Positions 51,060 through 62,730 of a stretch of 64,000 nucleotides of DNA are shown piece after piece. Where the stretch lies: NCBI GenBank assembly GCA_020350725.1, contig CP070719.1, positions 1,812,182 to 1,876,181 on the forward strand, written 5' to 3'. A program made the position numbers and the translations under genes. The stretch comes from a bacterium. Its GTDB lineage: Bacteria; BMS3Abin14. Within the stretch, counting starts at the first letter, position 1, and every line of letters starts with the position of its first letter. Below the pieces are notes generated by a model. It worked only from the letters and a program-made list of their open reading frames with translations, was not told the origin of the DNA and ran no database searches.

Positions 51060-51223
51060 GTTCCACGTTCCGGATACTAACTGTGAACTGAGAGCTGAGT
51101 CCCAAGGACTCAGTGATATGTGGTCAGTAACACCTCACTATACTTATCTCTTAGCACTATATATCCCTCTCCCATGCGCCCCCTCTGGACGCTGGCCTCT
51201 GGACTCTGGACTCTTTTCTCCCC
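51060..51223 (+). repeat. Left arm of a 164-bp inverted repeat
   Basis: This segment is the reverse complement of 53558-53721 with three mismatches that I can find over 164 bp (about 98% identity). The arms enclose dciA and two GntR genes. Confidence 0.9.
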
Positions 51224-51853: not shown

Positions 51854-51882
51854 TTGACAGTAAAAGGGAAATCACCTAACTT
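51854..51882 (+). promoter_or_regulatory. Promoter of the first GntR gene
   Basis: TTGACA (51854-51859), 17-nt spacer, TAACTT (51877-51882). Transcription would begin near 51889, just upstream of the palindromic operator. Confidence 0.5.
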
Positions 51883-51900
51883 AATATTAAGAATACTGTA

Positions 51901-51914
51901 TTTTGTATACAAAA
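51901..51914. promoter_or_regulatory. GntR-type operator palindrome
   Basis: TTTTGTATACAAAA is a perfect 14-bp palindrome with the TTGTATACAA core known for FCD-type GntR regulators. It lies about 45 bp before the first GntR start and downstream of the promoter, which suggests autorepression by roadblock. Confidence 0.7.
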
Positions 51915-51958
51915 TTTCCCTCCCCCATCAGAGTCTGGATTATAACAGGATAGTGAGA

Positions 51959-52633
51959 TTGAAAAAGCACAAAACCCTCAGGGAGCAGATAGCCTCCTCA
52001 CTTAGGGAGTCCATCATCCAGGGTGAACTGCCGCCGGGCCAGAAGCTCACGGAGCCGGAACTGGCAGAGCGGCTCGGGATCAGCCGGACGCCTATCAGGG
52101 AAGCCTTTCGGCAGCTGGAGAGCGAGGGGTTCCTGACCGTCATTCCGAGGCGCGGCGCGGTCGTGTCCACCATTACCGTCAAAGAGATCAAGGACTTCTA
52201 CGAACTGAAGAGCCTCCTGGAGGGATATGCCGCCAGGGTCGCTGCGGAGAGGATAAACCTGAAGGACATTGAGAAACTGGAAAAGATCAACAACCAACTG
52301 GAAGACCTTGCCGAGAGGGGCCACGTGGAAGGATTTTTCCGCAAGAACGAGGAGTTCCATAACTGCTTTCTCCAGCTGTGCGGAAACGAGAAGCTGATGG
52401 AACTAAGGAACACGATGGTCAAAAGGTTCCTCGGTTTCAGGATGGCGACCCTGTCGCTGCCCGGAAGGCTCATGGAGTCCGTACGTCAGCATCGATCCAT
52501 CATCAAGGCCTTCCAGAAGAGAGACGGACGTCTGGCGGAGGCCATCGTCGTGGAGCACGCCCTTCTGGGCGGTGAGGAGCTGGCCAATCAGGTCCGAAAG
52601 CTTCAAGAGGAGGCTGGTCTGAAAATGGGATAG
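51959..52633 (+). CDS. GntR-family regulator, FCD (FadR-like) subfamily, copy 1
   Basis: A 224-residue regulator. TTG 51959 has AGGA 8 nt upstream and gives the family start MKKHKTLREQI; upstream GTG 51953 is too close to it. The winged helix (about 5-70: LRESIIQGELPPGQKLTEPELAERLGISRTPIREAFRQLESEGF in parts) precedes a helical FCD ligand-binding domain (about 80-215) with the metal/ligand His in EFHNCF and RQHRSI. The ligand is unknown but is typically a small organic acid. 97 bp before its paralogue. Confidence 0.9.
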   Translation: MKKHKTLREQIASSLRESIIQGELPPGQKLTEPELAERLGISRTPIREAFRQLESEGFLTVIPRRGAVVSTITVKEIKDFYELKSLLEGYAARVAAERINLKDIEKLEKINNQLEDLAERGHVEGFFRKNEEFHNCFLQLCGNEKLMELRNTMVKRFLGFRMATLSLPGRLMESVRQHRSIIKAFQKRDGRLAEAIVVEHALLGGEELANQVRKLQEEAGLKMG

Positions 52634-52730
52634 GGGGGAGCCCGCCCGGTTGCCCTTTCCGAAAAACGGAGGGAAGCACCGGAGCCGGGCAGGATCCCGT
52701 GTAGTCAGACAACAGACGGCAGGTGATCTC

Positions 52731-53417
52731 ATGATAAAGGATTTCAAGATCAAGATCGAGGAGCCGAAGCTTCTCTCCGAGGATATCGCGGATTCCATCA
52801 AGAGGGCCATCATCAAGGGGAAATTCAAGCCGGGTGAAAAGATCTCCGAGGGGGAGCTTGCCGAATCCATGGGTATCAGCCGGACGCCCCTGAGGGAGGC
52901 ATTCAGAAAACTGGAGAACGAGGGCTTCATCGAGATCATCCCGAGAAAGGGCGCTGTGGTCACGGAGATCGATGCCAAGGAGGCCTATGACCTGTACCAG
53001 ATCAAGAGCGCCCTTGAGGGGTTGGCCGCCAGACTCGCCGTCGGCAAGGTCAAGGAGAAGGACATCGAAAAACTGAAGAAGATCAACGCTGAGCTGAGTG
53101 AGACTATTGAGGAATACGATCTGGAATCCTTTTACAGAACCCACTGCCGCTTCCACGAGGTCTTTGTCAAGATTTCCGGAAATAATCGGCTGATCCACCT
53201 GATCTCCAATCTCAACGATCATTTCCAGCGCTACGGCATCGCCTCTCTGGCCCTGCCCGGCCAGTATGAGAACACGATCAGGCAGCATGAGGAGATCATC
53301 GATGCCTTCCAGAGGGGAGACGAACGGAACGTCGAGGAGAAGGTCCGGGAAAATGTCCTGACGGGCGGGAGTGTCCTCATCGACCACCTGGCCAGGACCG
53401 CCCCTTCCCCCAAGTAA
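52731..53417 (+). CDS. GntR-family regulator, FCD subfamily, copy 2
   Basis: A 228-residue regulator with AGGTGA before ATG 52731 (an open frame continues to 52650). The winged helix (SIKRAIIKGKFKPGEKISEG, SMGISRTPLREAFRKLENEGF) and the FCD domain (CRFHEVFVKISGNNRL, IRQHEEIIDAFQRGD) match copy 1 block by block, so the pair arose by duplication. The two probably bind related operators. No enzyme genes for a known FCD ligand lie beside them; the formate dehydrogenase region starts 540 bp downstream. Confidence 0.9.
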   Translation: MIKDFKIKIEEPKLLSEDIADSIKRAIIKGKFKPGEKISEGELAESMGISRTPLREAFRKLENEGFIEIIPRKGAVVTEIDAKEAYDLYQIKSALEGLAARLAVGKVKEKDIEKLKKINAELSETIEEYDLESFYRTHCRFHEVFVKISGNNRLIHLISNLNDHFQRYGIASLALPGQYENTIRQHEEIIDAFQRGDERNVEEKVRENVLTGGSVLIDHLARTAPSPK

Positions 53418-53557: not shown

Positions 53558-53721
53558 GGGGAGAAAAGAGTCCAGAGTCCAGAGGCCAGCGTCCAGATGG
53601 GGCGCATGGGAGAGGGATATAAAGTGCTAAGAGATAAGTATAGTGAGGTGTTACTGACCACATATCACTGAGTCCTTGGGACTCAGCTCTCAGTTCACAG
53701 TTAGTATCTGGAACGTGGAAC
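53558..53721 (-). repeat. Right arm of the 164-bp inverted repeat
   Basis: Reverse complement of 51060-51223. Outside the arm, 53805-53870 carries TGAACAGTGAACCGTGAAC and TTTTTGGATCTTGGAC words that are the inverse of 50852-50895, so the inverted symmetry continues imperfectly beyond the arms. 53418-53956 holds no gene. Confidence 0.9.
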
Positions 53722-53956: not shown

Positions 53957-56779
53957 TTGAAGAGTGTCCGGATCAGCAGGAGGTCCTTTTTCAAGGCAGG
54001 CGCCGGGCTGCTGGTGAGCCTTCTGGGCCCTTCCGGCGGCGGTCCCCTTTTTGCCGGTGTCAAGCCGTCGCCGATCTTCGGAAGGGAGATCCCCAGCCGA
54101 TGCCCCCTCTGCGCCATGGGCTGCGGAGTGATCTATCTGAAGCGAACGGACGGGAGGTGGTCCGTTGAGGGGGATCCGGACTGTCCCGTGGCCGGCGGCA
54201 GTCTGTGTGCCCGGGGGACGTCCCTTTTGGCGGTGTCCGATCTGGCTGCGTCGGCAAAACCCCTTGTCAGGAACCCCGGCAGTTCCCAATGGGAGGAGCT
54301 GCCCTGGTCCGAAGCCGTCGACAGGGTCGCCAGGCGGATCAAGGACTTCAGGGACAGGGAGTTAAGGGGAGTAGGTAACGATTCACCCCATAGCAACCGC
54401 TTCGAGGGTATGGGGATCATCAGTGGCGGCCATATCGCCAATGAGGAGGCCTACCTCGCGGCTAAGCTCTTCCGATCCCTCGGGATCGTGCAGATGGACA
54501 CCACTGTCAGGGCAGGCCGCGGCATGGCGGTCCTCGGTCTTCTAGAGGTTCTCGGCCTGCCTGGCCCAACCCATCCGCCTGTTCAAGTAGCCGACAGCGA
54601 CGTGGTGTTCCTGGTGGGGTGTAATCCGGGTCAGACCTCCCCTGTTCTGTCCAGGGCCCTGGACAACGTGCGCCGAAGGCATGGAGTGGTCATCGTCCTG
54701 GACCCCAGGATGACCGAGTCGGTCAAGGAGGGGGACATCTGGCTGAACGTGAGACCTGGCTGCGATGCCGCCGTCCTGGGAGGACTGCTGCACTGGGTCC
54801 TGGAGAATGTCTCGCCGAGAAAGGAGGAACTGACACAGAACACGGACGCCGCCTTCATGACGCTGACTGAAACCCTGGGACAGTACGAACGGCATACAGG
54901 TAAAAGGGCCGAGGAAGGTTTCGTCACGGATCCCTCTCTGGAGGAGCCCTACTCGATCTTTCAGCGGCTCAAAAGACACTACGAGCGCTACGATCTTCGA
55001 AAGGTCTCCGATATTGCCGGTGTGGATGAGACACTCCTCCGCAGGGCCGCCCGGCTGCTCGCCAGGACCGGCGAGCAGGAGTTCTCGGCCTGTTTCGTTC
55101 TCGGTGCCGGGGCTCTCGGCAGGCCATCGGGGCCTGACAGCGCCCGAATGGCGGCCATGATCCAGGCTCTGCTCGGAAACCTCAAGAAGCGCGGCGGCGG
55201 AATCGTGATCGCGGCAGGTGCCGGAAATGCTCAGGGCGTCTGTGACATGGGTCTGTTGTCGCCCTTCCTCCCCGGCTACCTGGCCCTTCCCCGGCATGGC
55301 GAGGGCGTCGGAGGGGAACCGCATGTCTCAAAGGACATGGGGGCGCTCCATGCTCTGCTGAGAGCATGGTTTGACGGGACGGGCCCCTCCGAGACGGTGG
55401 GATATCTGCCGGTCCTCGATGAGGGTGAGACACCTTTGATCAACACCATCCTCCAGGGAATTGGAGAGGAGAAGGTCCGCTCGCTCGTCCTCATCGGCGC
55501 CGATCCCGTAATGAGTATTCCGGGCAGCGGAGAGATCAGGGAGAACCTGTCAAATCTCGATCTCCTCGTCGTCCTGGATGTTCTGCCCAGTAAGACCTGC
55601 GAATTCTGGATGTCCGCCTCCGTGGACCTCTCCTCCGTCAAGACGGAGGTTATCTATCTGCCCATTCAGGCTCCCGCACAGAGAGGCGGAACCATGACCG
55701 ATGGGGGGCGCCGTGTCAGGCCTCTTTACCCGGTAGAGGGGGGGAGCGGCGCGGCCCGGTCGCTTTTGGGGATCCTTGTCGAACTGGGAGTCCACCTGAA
55801 AGAGGCCTATCGCAGAGAGGGAGGCTCCGTAGACGCCCCCGTCATGGCCCTCAGATGGCCCTTGAAGTCCGATTACCGCCAGATAGCCGAGGAGATCAAC
55901 GGCGTCCTCTTTCGAAACGATGACAGGGAGCTGCTCTCGCCGGAGCACCCTTGGGAGGGTGAGGTCCTCTGCGGTAATCGACTCTACAGGGGATGGTTGT
56001 CGGAGGCGGGCTGGCAGGTCGAACGGAGAGGTGTCTCGGACAGGAACCGGATCGGTCTGTTCGAGGAATGGGGTTGGTTCTGGCCGGGGGGGATCCCGGA
56101 TCCCTTTTCCTGGATTTTCGACAGGACACATGAAGCGACGGTTCTGCTCCGATGGGAGGGCCAGGAAGGGATGGTTCGCTCCGGTGACGTCGCCCTCCCT
56201 CTCAGGCGAAACCTGCCGGTGAAATTCTGGAGGGAGTCGCCTCACGGCATCCCCTTTCCAGAACATTACGAGCCCCTCCACAGCCCTCTTCCGGATCTTC
56301 TGACGGGGGGAAAAGGCAGCCCGGACATCGTCACCCGGTTCAGCGGCGGCGAGCCATGGGACTATCTCTCGCGCCGGCCCGAGATGACCCTGGAGGATTA
56401 TCAGGTTATCATGACCGTCCACCGCACCGGGAACATGGCAGGAAGCGGGGGAGTGGTGGCGCAGGTCGATTGGCTGAGAGAGCTCGGCACGGCAAGGGTC
56501 CTGGAGATCGGCGTCGACCTGGCTGCACGCCTGAAGGTGGTCTCAGGCGACACGGTGACCGTCCGTTCACCCCATTTTCGGGTGGGAGTGACCGCTGCGG
56601 TCCTGGTGACCCGGAGAATTGGGAACTATCAATTCAACGGTAGAAGCTTTGCCCTGGCGTCCCTGTCGCTTTACGGAGAGGGAACACCGTCGACAAACGA
56701 CCTCCCTCCCCCGGCTTTCAGCTCGTCCGGAGAGGGAATGCAGATAAAAGCCTTCATGGCCAAAGTGGAGAAAGCATAG
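53957..56779 (+). CDS. FdhA-like molybdopterin oxidoreductase paralogue lacking all three catalytic residues
   Basis: A 940-residue protein with a twin-arginine signal (RRSFFKAG) and the four [4Fe-4S] cysteines (C49, C52, C56, C84). Over the active-site segment it aligns without gaps to the genuine FdhA at 58202-61300, from LG to the SDV strand. At the Sec190 position it has Gly187 (codon GGC), at His191 it has Arg188, and at the catalytic Arg442 it has Ala420 in GNAQG. The Lys after the cluster is Arg. The C-terminal Mo-cofactor domain (FPEHYEPLHSP, VHRTGNMAGSGG) is kept. It should bind a pterin cofactor but cannot oxidise formate in the known way. fdhE follows 64 bp later. The start codon is a TTG at 53957. 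Confidence 0.85.
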   Translation: MKSVRISRRSFFKAGAGLLVSLLGPSGGGPLFAGVKPSPIFGREIPSRCPLCAMGCGVIYLKRTDGRWSVEGDPDCPVAGGSLCARGTSLLAVSDLAASAKPLVRNPGSSQWEELPWSEAVDRVARRIKDFRDRELRGVGNDSPHSNRFEGMGIISGGHIANEEAYLAAKLFRSLGIVQMDTTVRAGRGMAVLGLLEVLGLPGPTHPPVQVADSDVVFLVGCNPGQTSPVLSRALDNVRRRHGVVIVLDPRMTESVKEGDIWLNVRPGCDAAVLGGLLHWVLENVSPRKEELTQNTDAAFMTLTETLGQYERHTGKRAEEGFVTDPSLEEPYSIFQRLKRHYERYDLRKVSDIAGVDETLLRRAARLLARTGEQEFSACFVLGAGALGRPSGPDSARMAAMIQALLGNLKKRGGGIVIAAGAGNAQGVCDMGLLSPFLPGYLALPRHGEGVGGEPHVSKDMGALHALLRAWFDGTGPSETVGYLPVLDEGETPLINTILQGIGEEKVRSLVLIGADPVMSIPGSGEIRENLSNLDLLVVLDVLPSKTCEFWMSASVDLSSVKTEVIYLPIQAPAQRGGTMTDGGRRVRPLYPVEGGSGAARSLLGILVELGVHLKEAYRREGGSVDAPVMALRWPLKSDYRQIAEEINGVLFRNDDRELLSPEHPWEGEVLCGNRLYRGWLSEAGWQVERRGVSDRNRIGLFEEWGWFWPGGIPDPFSWIFDRTHEATVLLRWEGQEGMVRSGDVALPLRRNLPVKFWRESPHGIPFPEHYEPLHSPLPDLLTGGKGSPDIVTRFSGGEPWDYLSRRPEMTLEDYQVIMTVHRTGNMAGSGGVVAQVDWLRELGTARVLEIGVDLAARLKVVSGDTVTVRSPHFRVGVTAAVLVTRRIGNYQFNGRSFALASLSLYGEGTPSTNDLPPPAFSSSGEGMQIKAFMAKVEKA

Positions 56780-56843: not shown

Positions 56844-57770
56844 ATGGGGAAAGCGTCAAATATGGAATCCGGACCCTATCGGGCTCTGTTCTCCGGCGAC
56901 ATGGATGTCGAGGGAATGGAGGAGATCCTCCAGTTGTACCGGGACCTGTTCCCCTTGTCCGGCCAAGCACTGAAACCGGCCAGGGAATATCGAATGCCGA
57001 CCGGTGAAGAGGTGAGCATGAGACTGGAAGAGGGTTTTACCCTCCTTCAGCCTGAGGATCTGATGCCCTCCACGGAGGAGGTTTACCGGACAGCCATCGA
57101 GGTGATGGGGATCCTCTCCCGTCACTCGGACAGGGAGGAAGCGATGGGGATGCTTGCGGAAGAGGTGAAGAGGGAGGAATTTCTCCCGTCCCTGGTGGCG
57201 CTCTATCTCCGTGGCGGCGAAGAGAGCCTGAGGGCGGAGATCGGCTCCGACCCCCGGGTCGATCCGGAACTCTGCCTGTTTCTCATATTCAACATCGTCA
57301 AAGGCAGCTTCCGGGAGAACGGAAGGGTCCTGGCCGAGGTTTCCCTGACGCCCTGGGAGAAGGAGACCTGTCCCGTGTGCGGCGGAGTGCCGGCGGTCGC
57401 CTATCTGTCCGGAGAGGAAGGACAGCGTCATCTTGTATGCCACCGATGTGAGGCCAGGTGGCGCTTTACCAGGATCCAGTGCCCATTCTGCGGCAACCGT
57501 GACCATGAGACGCTTGGCTACTTTACCCTCGAAGGGGGGGATCCGATCCTCAGGGTGGATTTCTGCGAGGAGTGCGGGAAGTATATCAAATCCTGGGATG
57601 TGCGGCAGAGGGAGGATCTCCTTCCGGAATACGAAGACCTCAAAAGCATCAGTTACGATATGGCGGCCGAGGAAGAGGGCTACCGGCGGGGAGCGCCCAA
57701 TATTTTCGGAGTGTGGGTCAACTTCGGCAGACCGGGGGATGAGAATGCCGAGGCAGACCGGGAGGCCTGA
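56844..57770 (+). CDS. fdhE: Formate dehydrogenase accessory protein FdhE
   Basis: A 308-residue rubredoxin-like metal-binding protein needed for assembly or activity of exported formate dehydrogenases. Four CxxC sites are visible: CPVCGG, CHRCEARW, CPFCGN and CEECGKYIK; ISYDMAAEEEGYRRG is near the end. GGAGG stands before the ATG. It lies between the inactive-looking paralogue and the selenoenzyme genes and may serve either or both. Next comes ACCAT-ATGGT with six T (57774-57797), a weak terminator. Confidence 0.93.
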   Translation: MGKASNMESGPYRALFSGDMDVEGMEEILQLYRDLFPLSGQALKPAREYRMPTGEEVSMRLEEGFTLLQPEDLMPSTEEVYRTAIEVMGILSRHSDREEAMGMLAEEVKREEFLPSLVALYLRGGEESLRAEIGSDPRVDPELCLFLIFNIVKGSFRENGRVLAEVSLTPWEKETCPVCGGVPAVAYLSGEEGQRHLVCHRCEARWRFTRIQCPFCGNRDHETLGYFTLEGGDPILRVDFCEECGKYIKSWDVRQREDLLPEYEDLKSISYDMAAEEEGYRRGAPNIFGVWVNFGRPGDENAEADREA

Positions 57771-57846: not shown

Positions 57847-58092
57847 TGTTTCGGAGACCGCCTCCCGGCCCTTAGCCGGGATATGTGGGGCTGGCGGGTA
57901 ATGAAAACCTATCCCCGCACTCTGTTTCAGCGATCTACATACTGGCGAAAGCCGGCTCGTAACTGAATCGAGCGACTTCCGATCCCGCCGTGTCCCTCTG
58001 GGATGCCCGGGACGTTAGGGTGTGGAGAGCAATCGCCGCGCCTGCCGTCTTGCAAAGGAAGCCGTGACTGGGTCATGGCTTCCTTTTTCTAT
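57847..58092 (+). ncRNA. Structured leader or small RNA of unknown class before fdhA
   Basis: Bounded by a promoter and a terminator, this stretch has no gene but many stems: CCCGGC/GCCGGG (57874-57891 region), GTGGGG/CCCCGCAC enclosing GGGT/ACC, CTGGC-GAAA-GCCGG with a GNRA loop, and GTCCC/GGGAC. It does not show the marks of tRNA-Sec, tmRNA, RNase P, SRP RNA, cobalamin or GEMM riboswitches. A molybdenum- or tungsten-cofactor-type leader would fit the downstream gene, and a 6S-like RNA fits the length, but I cannot match either by eye. Confidence 0.55.
58058..58092 (+). terminator. Intrinsic terminator in front of fdhA
   Basis: AGGAAGCCGTGAC pairs with the TCATGGCTTCCT strand around TGGG and is followed by five T. 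It stands 110 nt before the fdhA start, so it either ends a small RNA or acts as an attenuator. Confidence 0.85.
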
Positions 58093-58201: not shown

Positions 58202-61200
58202 ATGAACGTAACCAGGAGAGATTTTCTGAAGATCTCCGGCGTCACCGTTTCAGGAGCGGCGATTGGCGGTCTTGGTCTCCGTGGTACGGCGATGGCTGGT
58301 GCCCGGCAGGGTAACACAGCCGTCAAGTACGCAAAGGAGTCAACCACCATCTGCCCGTTCTGCGCGGTGGGATGCGGCATCATCGTCCATGCTCACGGCG
58401 GCAAAGTGGTGAACATGGAGGGTGACCCCGATCATCCCATCAACGAGGGAACGCTCTGCTCGAAAGCCCAGGCTCTCCGGCAGGTCTCTGAAAACCCCTA
58501 CCGGATCACCAAACCCCTCTACCGCGCGCCCCGAAGCAGTGAGTGGAAGGAGGTCACTTGGGATTGGGCCTACAGTGAGATCGCCAAACGGGTCAAGAAG
58601 AGCCGTGATGCCGGTTTCACCAAGGTCAACTCGAAGGGACAGGTCGTCAACCGGAACGACGGGATCGCCCACGTCGGTTCGGCGGCCCTTGACAATGAGG
58701 AGTGCTACCTCCTCCAGAAATGGCTTCGCGCCCTCGGCCTGGTGTACATCGAGCACCAGGCGCGGATATGACACAGCGCCACCGTAGCGGCTCTGGCAGA
58801 GTCGTTTGGAAGAGGCGCGATGACCAACCACTGGATCGACATCCGCAATTCGGACGTCATCCTCATCAGCGGATCCAACGCCGCTGAGAACCACCCCATC
58901 TCATTCAAGTGGGTGACCAAGGCCATGGAGAACGGGGCCAAGCTGATCAGCGTGGACCCCAGGTTCACCCGAACCTCCTCCAGGGCCGACATATTTGCCG
59001 CCATTCGGTCCGGTACGGACATCGCGTGGCTGGGCGGTATGATCAAGTACATCCTCGACAACGAGCTTTATCACAAGGACTACGTCAGGCTGTACACCAA
59101 TGCCCCGTTCATCCTGAACAGCGGCTTCAAGATGCCGGGTGATCTGGACGGCTTGTTCTCGGGGTACGACCCGAAGAAGAGGAGCTACGACAGGAGCACC
59201 TGGGCCTATGCCAAGGACGCCAACGGCGTGATCAGGAAGGATCCTAGCATGAAGGATCCCATGTGCGTCCTCCAGCTCCTGAAGAAGCACTTTTCCAGGT
59301 ACACCCTGGACAAGGTGTCGACCATTTGCGGTACCCCCAAGGACAAGCTCCTCGAGGTCTACAAGGCCTACGCTACCACCGGCAAAGCGGACCGGACCGG
59401 TACCATCATGTACGCCATGGGCTGGACCCAGCACACGGTGGGGACCCAGAACATCAGGACCATGGCCATTATCCAGCTCCTGCTGGGCAACATCGGCATG
59501 GCCGGGGGCGGCGTCAACGCCCTGCGGGGGGAATCCAACGTCCAGGGGTCCACGGACCACTGCCTGCTGTTCCACATCCTGCCCGGATACCTCGGCACCC
59601 CTTCGGCTTCCCTGTCCAGCCTGGACAAGTACCTTGAGGCCAAGACGCCCACGACCAAGGAGCCCTATTCGGCGAACTGGTGGCAGAACTATCCCAAGTA
59701 CATGGCGAGCCTGCTGCGGGCGCACTTCGGCCAGAGCGCCGACCTCGCCACCCAGTACAACTGGATGCCCAAGCTGGATGACGGACAGAACGCGTCCTGG
59801 CTCATGCTGTTCGACGAGATGTTCAACGGCAAGTTCACCGGATTCTTCGCCTGGGGCCAGAACCCGGCCTGCTCGGGGTCCAATGCCGGCAAGGTCCGGG
59901 AGGCCCTCAAGAAACTGGACTGGATGGTCAACGTCAACCTGTTCGACAACGAGACCGGTTCCTTCTGGCGCGGTCCCGAGATGAACCCGGCCGAGATCAA
60001 GACGGAGGTGTTCTTCCTCCCCTGCGCCATGTCCTTCGAAAAGGAGGGGAGCATCACCAATTCCGGGCGATGGGCCCAGTGGCGCTATACAGCCGTCAAA
60101 CCGCCGGCCCCCACCGATGCAGACATCATCAACGAGCTCCAGTTCAAGGTCAGAAAGCTCTATGAGGAGCAGGGCGGCGTGTACCCCGATCCCATCCTGA
60201 ACCTGGCATGGGATTACGGTGCCAAGGGTCCGGACGGCAAGGTCAGGCACATGGACACCCACCTGGTCGCCAAGGAGATCAACGGGTACTTCCTGGAGGA
60301 CAAGGAGATCAGGGGCACCCTCTACAAGAAGGGTGACCTGGTTCCGTCCTTCGCCTTCCTCCAGGACGACGGATCCACCTCGTCGGGCAACTGGCTGTAC
60401 TGCCAGTCCTACAACGCCTCCGGCAACAACATGGCAAGACGAAGCAAATCGGATCCCACAGGCACCGGCCTCTACAACGGCTGGTCCTGGTGCTGGCCCG
60501 TCAACAGGCGGATCATCTACAACCGGGCCAGTGTCGACGAGTACGGCAAGCCCTGGGCGCCCCACAAGCCGGTCATCTACTGGAGCGGCAAATCGTGGGT
60601 GGGTGACGTTCCCGACGGCGGATGGCCGCCGCTCAGGAAGCCAGACGGCACCTGGAACGAGGCGACGAAGCTGGCCTACATCATGAAACCGGTGGGTGTG
60701 GCCCACATCTTCGGTCCCGGCCGGGCTGAGGGTCCCTTCCCCGAGCACTACGAGCCTCTGGAGTGCCCCATTGAGAAGAACCTCATGAATCCCCAGAGGA
60801 TCAACCCGGTCGCCAAACTCTTCACGGGCAAGATGGATCAGTTCCTCACCTGTGACGACCGCTATCCCCTGGTGGCCACCACCTACAGGGTCACTGAGCA
60901 CTGGCAGACCGGGGTCCTGACCAGGTGGCTTCCCTGGCAGGCCGAGATGATGCCCGCCAACTTCGTGGAGCTGAGCGAAGAGCTGGCCAAGGAGCGGAAC
61001 ATCAAGAACGGCGAAGCGGTGGTGGTGTCATCCGTCAGGGGCAAGGTCGACGCGATTGCCATCGTGACCAGGCGGTTCAAGCCCTTCACCGTAGCCGGTT
61101 CGACGGTCCATCAGGTCGGGTTGCCATGGGCCTTCGGCTGGGCCACAACCAAGGAGAACGACGTGAAGGCCAACAACATGGCCTACAGCCACCCGACCTT

Positions 61201-61300
61201 CGGCGATTCGTCCAATCTCCTGACGCCCAGTATCGGCGACGCCAATACCATGATACCCGAGACGAAGGCCTTCATGGTCAACGTCGAGAAGAAAGCCTAG
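58202..61300 (+). CDS. fdhA: Selenocysteine formate dehydrogenase catalytic subunit FdhA/FdnG
   Basis: One gene of 1032 codons with an in-frame TGA at 58769-58771 read as Sec190. Around it the protein reads EHQARI-U-HSATVAALAESFGRGAMTNHW, the FdnG-type active site, and codons resume in the same frame. A stem-loop-forming sequence right after the TGA (GGCTCTGGCAGAGTC) is where a bacterial SECIS element should be. TAT signal RRDFLK (5-10), [4Fe-4S] ligands C51, C54, C58 and C86, Lys88, catalytic His191 and Arg442, and the C-terminal Mo-bis-MGD domain are intact. It oxidises formate in the periplasm and passes electrons to FdhB. Confidence 0.97.
58769..58771 (+). other. Recoded TGA (selenocysteine codon 190 of fdhA)
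   Basis: In-frame TGA flanked by conserved active-site residues on both sides and followed by a potential SECIS hairpin. It implies selA, selB, selC and selD elsewhere in the genome. Confidence 0.95.
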
Positions 61301-61316: not shown

Positions 61317-62147
61317 GTGGCTGAGAAATTTATCGTTATCGACACTTCCAAATGCACTGCCTGCCGAGGCTGCCAGACGGCCTGCAAGCAGTGGAACAAC
61401 CTCACAGCGGTGGCAACGAACAACCGCGGCAGCTACGAAAACCCCCCGGATCTCTCCAGCAGCACCTACGTCAAGGTCCTCTTTCACGAGACCGAGGTAG
61501 ACGGAGAGGTCAAGTGGCATTTCGGGCAGCGGCGCTGCATGCACTGCGCCGACGCCGGCTGCATCAAAGCCTGTCCGGTTCCCGGGGCCATCACCCGAGA
61601 CGCCAACGGGGCGGTGGTGATCAACCAGGGTCTGTGTACCGGCTGCAAGTACTGTGTCTTCGCCTGTCCTTTCGATATTCCGCGCTACGACAGCGGAAAT
61701 GCGGAAGGCGCCGGAGTGGACAGGGCCTACAAGTGCACCATGTGTTTTGAGCGCCAGTCCATGGGGATGGAACCCGCCTGCACGAAGACCTGCCCCACCG
61801 GGGCTCTCTCCTTCGCCGGCGAGGCCAAGCTCGCCGGGATCAAGGCGGGCGCCAAGGACAGGGGTCTTGAGGTCTACGACGGGGGGCCGTTGGCCACCAA
61901 CGTCGTATTCCTCCTCGAGGACAGCCCGTCCGCCTACGGCCTGCCCGCCAAACCGGCCATACCGACCCCCACGTATCTGTGGCGCACGGTCATGAAGCCG
62001 GTCGGTGTGGTTGCTTTCTTCGCCGGGCTGATCGCTCTGATCGCGCACTACGTCAACGTCGGTCCGAAGGTAGCCGAAGAGGAGACCGGAACAACCGCCC
62101 CGACGGGAGAGGGAGGAGGTGACAGCGATGTCTCATCACCTTATTAA
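61317..62147 (+). CDS. fdhB: Formate dehydrogenase iron-sulfur subunit FdhB
   Basis: A 276-residue electron-transfer subunit with four [4Fe-4S] sites: CTACRGCQTAC (13-23), CMHCADAGCIKACP, CTGCKYCVFACP and CTMCFERQ..CTKTCP. A C-terminal membrane helix (about 223-245, GVVAFFAGLIALIAHYV) anchors it. It carries electrons from FdhA to the cytochrome b subunit. GTG start 16 bp after fdhA with AGGGGGTGA before it. The tail is Glu/Thr-rich and ends inside the start of fdhC. Confidence 0.95.
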   Translation: MAEKFIVIDTSKCTACRGCQTACKQWNNLTAVATNNRGSYENPPDLSSSTYVKVLFHETEVDGEVKWHFGQRRCMHCADAGCIKACPVPGAITRDANGAVVINQGLCTGCKYCVFACPFDIPRYDSGNAEGAGVDRAYKCTMCFERQSMGMEPACTKTCPTGALSFAGEAKLAGIKAGAKDRGLEVYDGGPLATNVVFLLEDSPSAYGLPAKPAIPTPTYLWRTVMKPVGVVAFFAGLIALIAHYVNVGPKVAEEETGTTAPTGEGGGDSDVSSPY

Positions 62148-62730
62148 AAGACTTTCCTCGGGTGAGAGGTTCTTCCACTGGCTGAATATGCTCGCCTTCA
62201 TCGTGCTTGCCCTCACCGGCCTGGGCCTCTACAGTCAAAAGTTCTTCGGTCTGACCGGCCTGTTCGGCGGCGTGGACCTGTCCCGGGCCATCCATCATTA
62301 TGTCGGCCTCGTATTCATCGCCACGACGTTCATCATCCTCTTCCAGTTCATGAGGGACTACACGGCCCCGGGTGAGGACACTTTGGGCACCACCATCAAG
62401 AGCTACCTCGACCCCGATTTCAAGGGTCCGCCGGCGGGCAAGTTCAACGCCGGCCAGAAGCTGTTCGGCTGGTGCGCGTTTCTGTTCGGCGTCGTCATGG
62501 GGATCACGGGCCTTCTCATGTGGTTCCCGAGCACCGTAGGACGCGGCCTGCAGCAGTGGATGTACTTCCTCCACAACTTCTCGTTCATCGTGTTCATGGG
62601 CTTCATGATGATCCACGTCTATCTCGGAACCGTGGGGGTTCCCGGCACGTGGAGCGCCATGTCCAGAGGCACCGTGACGAAAGAGTGGGCCAAGAAGAAC
62701 CATCCCGCATGGGAGGGAGAAGAAGCCTAA
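62128..62730 (+). CDS. fdhC: Formate dehydrogenase cytochrome b556 subunit FdhC
   Basis: A 200-residue membrane protein with four helices. ATG 62128 has a perfect AGGAGGTGA 6 nt upstream; the GTG at 62119 belongs to that site. Likely haem ligands are H17 (ERFFHW), H56/H57, H149 and H163. It takes electrons from FdhB and reduces quinone. It overlaps fdhB by 20 bp and is the last gene of the operon. Confidence 0.94.
   Translation: MSHHLIKRLSSGERFFHWLNMLAFIVLALTGLGLYSQKFFGLTGLFGGVDLSRAIHHYVGLVFIATTFIILFQFMRDYTAPGEDTLGTTIKSYLDPDFKGPPAGKFNAGQKLFGWCAFLFGVVMGITGLLMWFPSTVGRGLQQWMYFLHNFSFIVFMGFMMIHVYLGTVGVPGTWSAMSRGTVTKEWAKKNHPAWEGEEA

Follow-up and report, generated by a model that had tools for sequence, protein, structure and literature searches.

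The locus analysed here raises the question of why a bacterium would keep, beside a live selenocysteine formate dehydrogenase (FDH), a full-length relative of its catalytic alpha subunit in which the active-site residues have been replaced. In the window, that is, the whole 64,000-nucleotide stretch of DNA that was analysed, this gene, which we call fdhX (product FdhX), lies within the following arrangement:

51854-52633, + strand: GntR/FCD regulator 1 (Pfam GntR and FCD; syntenic in relatives; start codon uncertain)
52650-53417, + strand: GntR/FCD regulator 2 (Pfam GntR and FCD; syntenic in relatives)
53957-56779, + strand: fdhX, putative FDH-N alpha-like pseudo-subunit of 940 amino acids with a Tat signal (RR at residues 8-9)
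56844-57770, + strand: fdhE-like chaperone gene, with FdhE central and C-terminal CxxC domains and a divergent N-terminal part
58202-61300, + strand: fdhA, selenocysteine FDH-N alpha subunit (Sec codon TGA at 58769-58771)
61317-62147, + strand: fdhB, four-cluster iron-sulfur subunit with the FDH-N transmembrane helix (Pfam)
62119-62730, + strand: fdhC, cytochrome b subunit

The position of fdhX beside fdhE and a live FDH, described in an earlier note on this DNA, was confirmed. The fdhE-like product scored 70.6 bits against the FdhE model TIGR01562, under the curated cut-off of 187.65; its central and C-terminal FdhE Pfam domains exceeded their cut-offs and FdhE_N gave no match. The two GntR genes are flanked by a 164-nt inverted repeat (51060-51223 and 53558-53721, 98% complementary) in surroundings rich in short repeated phrases, which may be a dispersed repeat or a mobile unit.

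The phylum was sampled by 12 species of one family, the window's own included. Orthologues that share a conserved neighbourhood were found, and FdhX is present in 11 of these species, the other proteins being 48-56% identical to that of the window; its carriers include the MAGs Proteobacteria bacterium SZUA-204, SZUA-178 and bacterium bin582. Ten FdhX sequences from six genera, the window's counted, are complete and intact, and the eleventh is interrupted by a run of N. The gene order GntR-GntR-fdhX-fdhE-[switch]-fdhA-fdhB-fdhC, where the switch is the riboswitch described below, is conserved in the phylum: all seven genes were found in order in seven genomes (the window's, G002, G003, G004, G008, G009 and G010), and in G001, G005, G007 and G011 the readable part of the locus agrees, the rest being cut by contig ends or a run of N. 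In G010 the fdhE gene (L081, 10547-11435) is broken into two frames that overlap, owing either to a frameshift or to an error of assembly. G006 has the complete locus minus fdhX, with about 0.2 kb separating GntR2 and fdhE. As G006 is nested among FdhX-bearing species in the FdhA tree, the absence is best read as a loss, in which this one genus would have dropped fdhX alone.

The fdhX reading frame, which opens with TTG, is uninterrupted across its 940 codons, and pairwise dN/dS values within genera (NG86) were 0.141, 0.152 and 0.152 for FdhX, 0.107 and 0.086 for FdhA, and 0.223, 0.198 and 0.209 for FdhE, the last of these from a pair that includes the frameshifted copy. These ratios indicate that FdhX is under purifying selection, slightly relaxed relative to FdhA. 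Across the relatives FdhX (50-56% identity) and FdhE (41-57%) both diverge faster than FdhA (81-87%), FdhB (69-74%) and FdhC (61-74%). The loss of the catalytic residues and the faster evolution relative to FdhA could suggest that fdhX is a decaying duplicate, or that its sequence is in error, but ten intact orthologues in six genera and dN/dS values of 0.14-0.15 counter both ideas and make them very improbable, in agreement with the earlier view that the frame is not simply decaying.

With respect to its origin, the only close relative of FdhX in the window genome is the adjacent Sec-FdhA, at 31% identity. Alignment-derived patterns run against contigs of about 85,000 species found FdhX, within the reach of these patterns, in this phylum only, the sole other match being one 23%-identical Nitrospirae protein. 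In 395 genomes of another FDH-rich phylum, where scoring covered the two best candidates of each genome, the listed matches, two excepted, have an in-frame TGA or ordinary-FDH scores. In trees FdhX forms a single clade, carried by a long stem that attaches at the base of FDH-N or next to it. Descent by a recent tandem duplication of the phylum's FdhA is disfavoured, as FdhX falls outside the FdhA clade; grouping with this clade is rejected weakly (AU p 0.037, weak given the long branch). In one genome of the phylum (G011:C423, L057) we also observed a second Sec-FdhA, which groups with the FDH of another phylum (G134) and looks to have been acquired separately.

Pfam detected in FdhX the Molybdopterin (PF00384, 80.3 bits) and Molybdop_Fe4S4 (PF04879, 36.6 bits) domains, both above the gathering score, and the closest solved structures were those of E. 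coli FdnG (5e-81) and the Desulfovibrio W-FDHs. Against the FDH-N alpha model TIGR01553, FdhX reached 371.8 bits, below the curated cut-off of 814.2. A structure predicted from 46 sequences (mean pLDDT 81, pTM 0.88) matched FdnG (1kqf_A) with a Z score of 42.5 over 876 residues at 2.6 A and the D. vulgaris W-FDH with a Z score of 44 over 879 residues at 2.4 A, a fold match that is partly by construction because the model input included FDH sequences. The predicted FDH-N fold spans the full length of FdhX. The retention of the C-terminal cofactor-binding domain, proposed earlier, applies to this fold alone: Pfam Molydop_binding fails to match the window FdhX and matches seven of the ten orthologues weakly, whereas the neighbouring FdhA matches it at 3e-14, and the His of the R-x-x-x-H motif in this domain (His585 in FdhF numbering) is absent from all ten. 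The segment 825-831, the counterpart of this lost His, is among the lowest-confidence parts of the model.

An alignment of FdhX with E. coli FdhF and FdnG, 36-37 true FDH-N proteins and NapA located the following sites:

54101-54208, + strand: [4Fe-4S] cysteine codons C49, C52, C56 and C84, and the codon of the extra C76, all invariant in ten of ten orthologues
54515-54520, + strand: Gly187-Arg188 codons, aligned at the Sec-His position
55214-55216, + strand: Ala420 codon, aligned at the catalytic Arg position (FdhF Arg333)

Gly187, Arg188 and Ala420 align with SeCys140, His141 and Arg333 of FdhF, which bears out the earlier note on the replacement of all three residues; the alignment that it called ungapped is so locally, around these sites, but is gapped overall (187 against 190, but 420 against 442). 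In the neighbouring fdhA the in-frame TGA (58769-58771) is codon 190, with His next. Among the ten full FdhX orthologues, the window's included, the Sec site holds Ser in six and Gly in four, the His141 position Arg in five, His in four and Tyr in one, and the Arg333 position Ala in five, Ser in four and Val in one. Neither Sec nor Cys, which would have pointed to a local sequencing error, was found at the ligand site in any of the ten. An alternative metal ligand (Ser, Asp or a shifted Cys) was also considered: Ser is found in six of the ten orthologues, yet the window FdhX has Gly, and a conserved Ser ligand therefore fails as an explanation; the invariant Cys429 matches an FdhF Cys beside the former Arg and not the ligand site.

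The four [4Fe-4S] cysteines and the two Tat arginines are invariant in all ten orthologues, and every FdhX also retains numerous structural Gly and Pro residues and some of the conserved polar ones. Cys76 (codon 54182-54184), eight residues before the last Fe-S Cys, is likewise invariant in the ten FdhX at a position where FDHs mostly have His, and may alter the Fe-S cluster. By comparison, His181, Gln301, Gln335, Glu450, Gln463 and His585 (FdhF numbering) are gone from all ten, the positions of His181, Gln301, Gln335 and His585 being taken by assorted small or hydrophobic residues; the Lys44 position is Arg in all ten. Of 83 positions, defined on an earlier alignment, at which FDH-N is at least 95% conserved and FdhF has the same residue, 49 are retained and 18 lost in all FdhX orthologues, the losses including Lys44, the Sec position, His181, Gln301, Arg333, Glu450, Gln463 and His585. 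Likewise, 38 of the 108 FDH-N-specific conserved positions are retained in every one. Among FDH-invariant columns, those of the pocket varied most within FdhX: the mean entropy was 1.44 bits in seven pocket columns, three of them the literature triad and four picked after the alignment had been viewed, against 0.51 bits in 172 columns (permutation p 0.0008). Together, these results indicate that FdhX is a maintained pseudo-alpha subunit and most likely not a formate dehydrogenase.

These data bear on two roles that the earlier note had entertained. The first is that FdhX holds the cofactor, storing W/Mo-bisPGD or passing it to FdhA, a possibility to which its retained fold and its location next to a cofactor-sensing RNA and a chaperone gene lend some appeal. 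However, several bis-PGD and metal pocket residues beyond the triad, including those shared from FDH to NapA, are missing, and Tat export would remove such a store from the cytoplasm, where insertion happens; this weakened reading is now improbable. The second is an enzyme with new chemistry, in which FdhX would bind Mo/W-bisPGD with an oxo/hydroxo, Ser or no protein ligand and act on another substrate. A protein ligand to the metal is not obligatory, arsenite oxidase being the precedent, and the proposal agrees with the Ser found in six of ten ligand sites, with the conserved polar residues that persist, and with six residues newly fixed in all ten FdhX (Arg86, Val184, Pro202, Leu387, Cys429 and Arg588). 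The positions of the ligand (Ser/Gly), of its neighbour (Arg/His/Tyr) and of Arg333 (Ala/Ser/Val) nevertheless vary freely between orthologues, and the assorted replacements of His181, Gln301, Gln335 and His585 are unlike a selected active site, so that we regard new chemistry as disfavoured and rather unlikely.

Between fdhE and fdhA we identified a candidate riboswitch:

57965-58076, + strand: Moco/Tuco riboswitch aptamer RF01055, P3 stem absent (33.9 bits)
58054-58086, + strand: intrinsic terminator hairpin, the expression platform, overlapping the 3' strand of aptamer P1

The score in the window is just below the gathering score of 36, and at the same place eight relatives, G006 included, score 36.3-48.1 bits; the riboswitch with its overlapping terminator is found between fdhE and fdhA in nine of nine genomes. 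The nine sequences align over 130 columns, and their hairpins carry compensatory changes: in 8 of 40 predicted pairs both partners differ while pairing is preserved. Absence of P3 has been linked with the tungsten cofactor (Regulski et al. 2008, PMC2408646), and its lack here is as in the proposed tungsten-cofactor variants of that report. In aptamer P1, CTTCC pairs with GGAAG, and the same GGAAG belongs to the 5' arm of the terminator, AAAGGAAGCC...GGCTTCCTTT; P1 and the terminator are therefore mutually exclusive. The simplest reading, with the direction deduced from base pairing only, is an ON switch, in which cofactor binding would allow P1 to form, block the terminator and permit transcription of fdhABC. 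Given its position, fdhX and fdhE lie upstream of the cofactor control and fdhABC downstream, so the predicted control would cover fdhABC and not fdhX-fdhE. This layout groups FdhX with the putative chaperone FdhE and not with the catalytic FdhABC.

The arrangement has consequences for the other two roles put forward earlier, a chaperone or decoy and an electron relay, both of which remain in play. As a relay or structural subunit, FdhX would replace or join FdhA in the periplasmic FdhABC, with electrons passing through its [4Fe-4S] cluster. The invariant Fe-S cysteines, the retained Tat export, the predicted full FDH-N fold and the precedent of the cofactor-less MopB subunits of Qrc and alternative complex III (PMC6303296, PMC13059093) all agree with this. 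On the other hand, fdhX lies outside the switch governing FdhB and FdhC, so that a shortage of cofactor would leave FdhX produced on its own, with no complex to join; the gene is dispensable in G006; and the retention of 38 of 108 FDH-N-specific positions disfavours an unchanged FdhB interface. We consider the relay a serious but unlikely candidate.

Our preferred reading, to which we give about an even chance, is that FdhX is a catalytically dead, FDH-N alpha-like protein kept by purifying selection, a non-catalytic partner of the FDH apparatus made together with FdhE, and its most likely role would be in FDH assembly or export. In E. coli, periplasmic FDHs depend on the chaperone FdhE, which binds to their alpha subunits (PMC10609526). 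FdhX would fold like FDH-N alpha and carry a [4Fe-4S] cluster, have no working Mo/W-bisPGD centre and not oxidize formate. It would be produced along with FdhE regardless of the tungsten or molybdenum cofactor; with cofactor present, the P1 stem would form, the terminator could not, and fdhABC would also be transcribed. As a stable alpha-mimic, FdhX might engage FdhE and/or the FdhB-facing surface, and it would leave the cytoplasm via Tat with its Fe-S cluster. It would be helpful and not indispensable, as one genus lost fdhX and kept everything else. A more specific version, tentative and held with much less confidence, is that the dead twin, made with FdhE irrespective of cofactor, prepares the route of FDH assembly and export, or keeps it in place, until the tungsten cofactor switches on the live alpha subunit.

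Some observations count against an accessory role. The Tat signal takes FdhX out of the cytoplasm, where FdhE works, and a pure chaperone need not be exported. Many family-conserved residues are retained, among them Arg138, Asn176, Arg581 and Arg644 (FdhF numbering), which would make cofactor binding possible. Besides, fdhE commonly accompanies fdh operons, and the pairing may reflect nothing more than an export requirement for FdhE that FdhX shares with FdhA. On balance we rank the accessory partner first, followed by the electron-relay or structural subunit, then new chemistry and lastly cofactor storage.

It is worth considering what such a protein would mean. A full-length FDH twin is retained beside the live copy across the whole phylum, with a cofactor-sensing RNA between them. 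If FdhX is an assembly partner or a relay, it would illustrate the way in which cells handle an expensive tungsten-selenium enzyme. In that case it could also serve as a helper protein in the production of FDHs for CO2 reduction, which is held back by their maturation. A natural comparison is offered by the genus lacking fdhX (G006). If the more specific version above held, FdhX would represent a novel class of pseudoenzyme acting as the partner of a respiratory selenoenzyme.

Among known systems, FdhX is closest to the FDH-N alpha subunits (TIGR01553; E. coli FdnG, the W-FdhA of Desulfovibrio vulgaris and D. gigas), with which it shares the full-length fold, a similar length, the Tat signal, the four Fe-S cysteines and a locus with FdhE, FdhB and a cytochrome b. 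It differs in that the active-site Sec or Cys, His and Arg and further pocket residues are gone: of the marks of an active FDH it lacks the Sec/Cys-His pair, the catalytic Arg and a score above the cut-off, and of those of FDH-N it has the Tat signal and the four [4Fe-4S] cysteines. The switch shares with the Moco/Tuco riboswitches (RF01055, PMC2408646) the aptamer core and the conserved CTTCC/GGAAG P1. It differs in lying inside an fdh cluster, between a pseudo-subunit/chaperone pair and the enzyme genes, and in being predicted ON through the overlap of P1 and terminator, whereas the E. coli moaA example represses.

Cofactor-less MopB relatives are known in respiratory complexes as QrcB and ActB (PMC6303296, PMC13059093). 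QrcB, a subunit of the Qrc menaquinone reductase (NF041783), is likewise a respiratory MopB-fold protein without catalysis, but FdhX is not a QrcB: it scored 32.6 bits against a cut-off of 440, QrcB is shorter, and the fdhX locus, where the neighbours are the GntR pair, FdhE, the live FdhA, FdhB and cytochrome b, lacks QrcACD-like partners (a multihaem cytochrome and an NrfD-like protein). Among QrcB relatives of another phylum (L101-L103), the two reaching the NCBI cut-off keep the CxxCxxxC...C motif, and the third, just under it, has lost the motif. The MopB domain of NuoG in complex I is also a family member without molybdenum catalysis; FdhX scored 31 bits against the NuoG cut-off of 470, and NuoG differs in architecture and location. 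ActB of alternative complex III is fused to an iron-sulfur subunit in a different respiratory complex, whereas FdhX is separate and FDH-N-like. In the literature searched for inactive FDH paralogues and molybdopterin pseudoenzymes, no FDH-N pseudo-alpha like FdhX was found. In summary, a dead MopB subunit is of a kind already known from QrcB and ActB, while an FDH-N pseudo-alpha that is encoded next to a live selenoprotein twin and parted from it by a cofactor riboswitch looks new.
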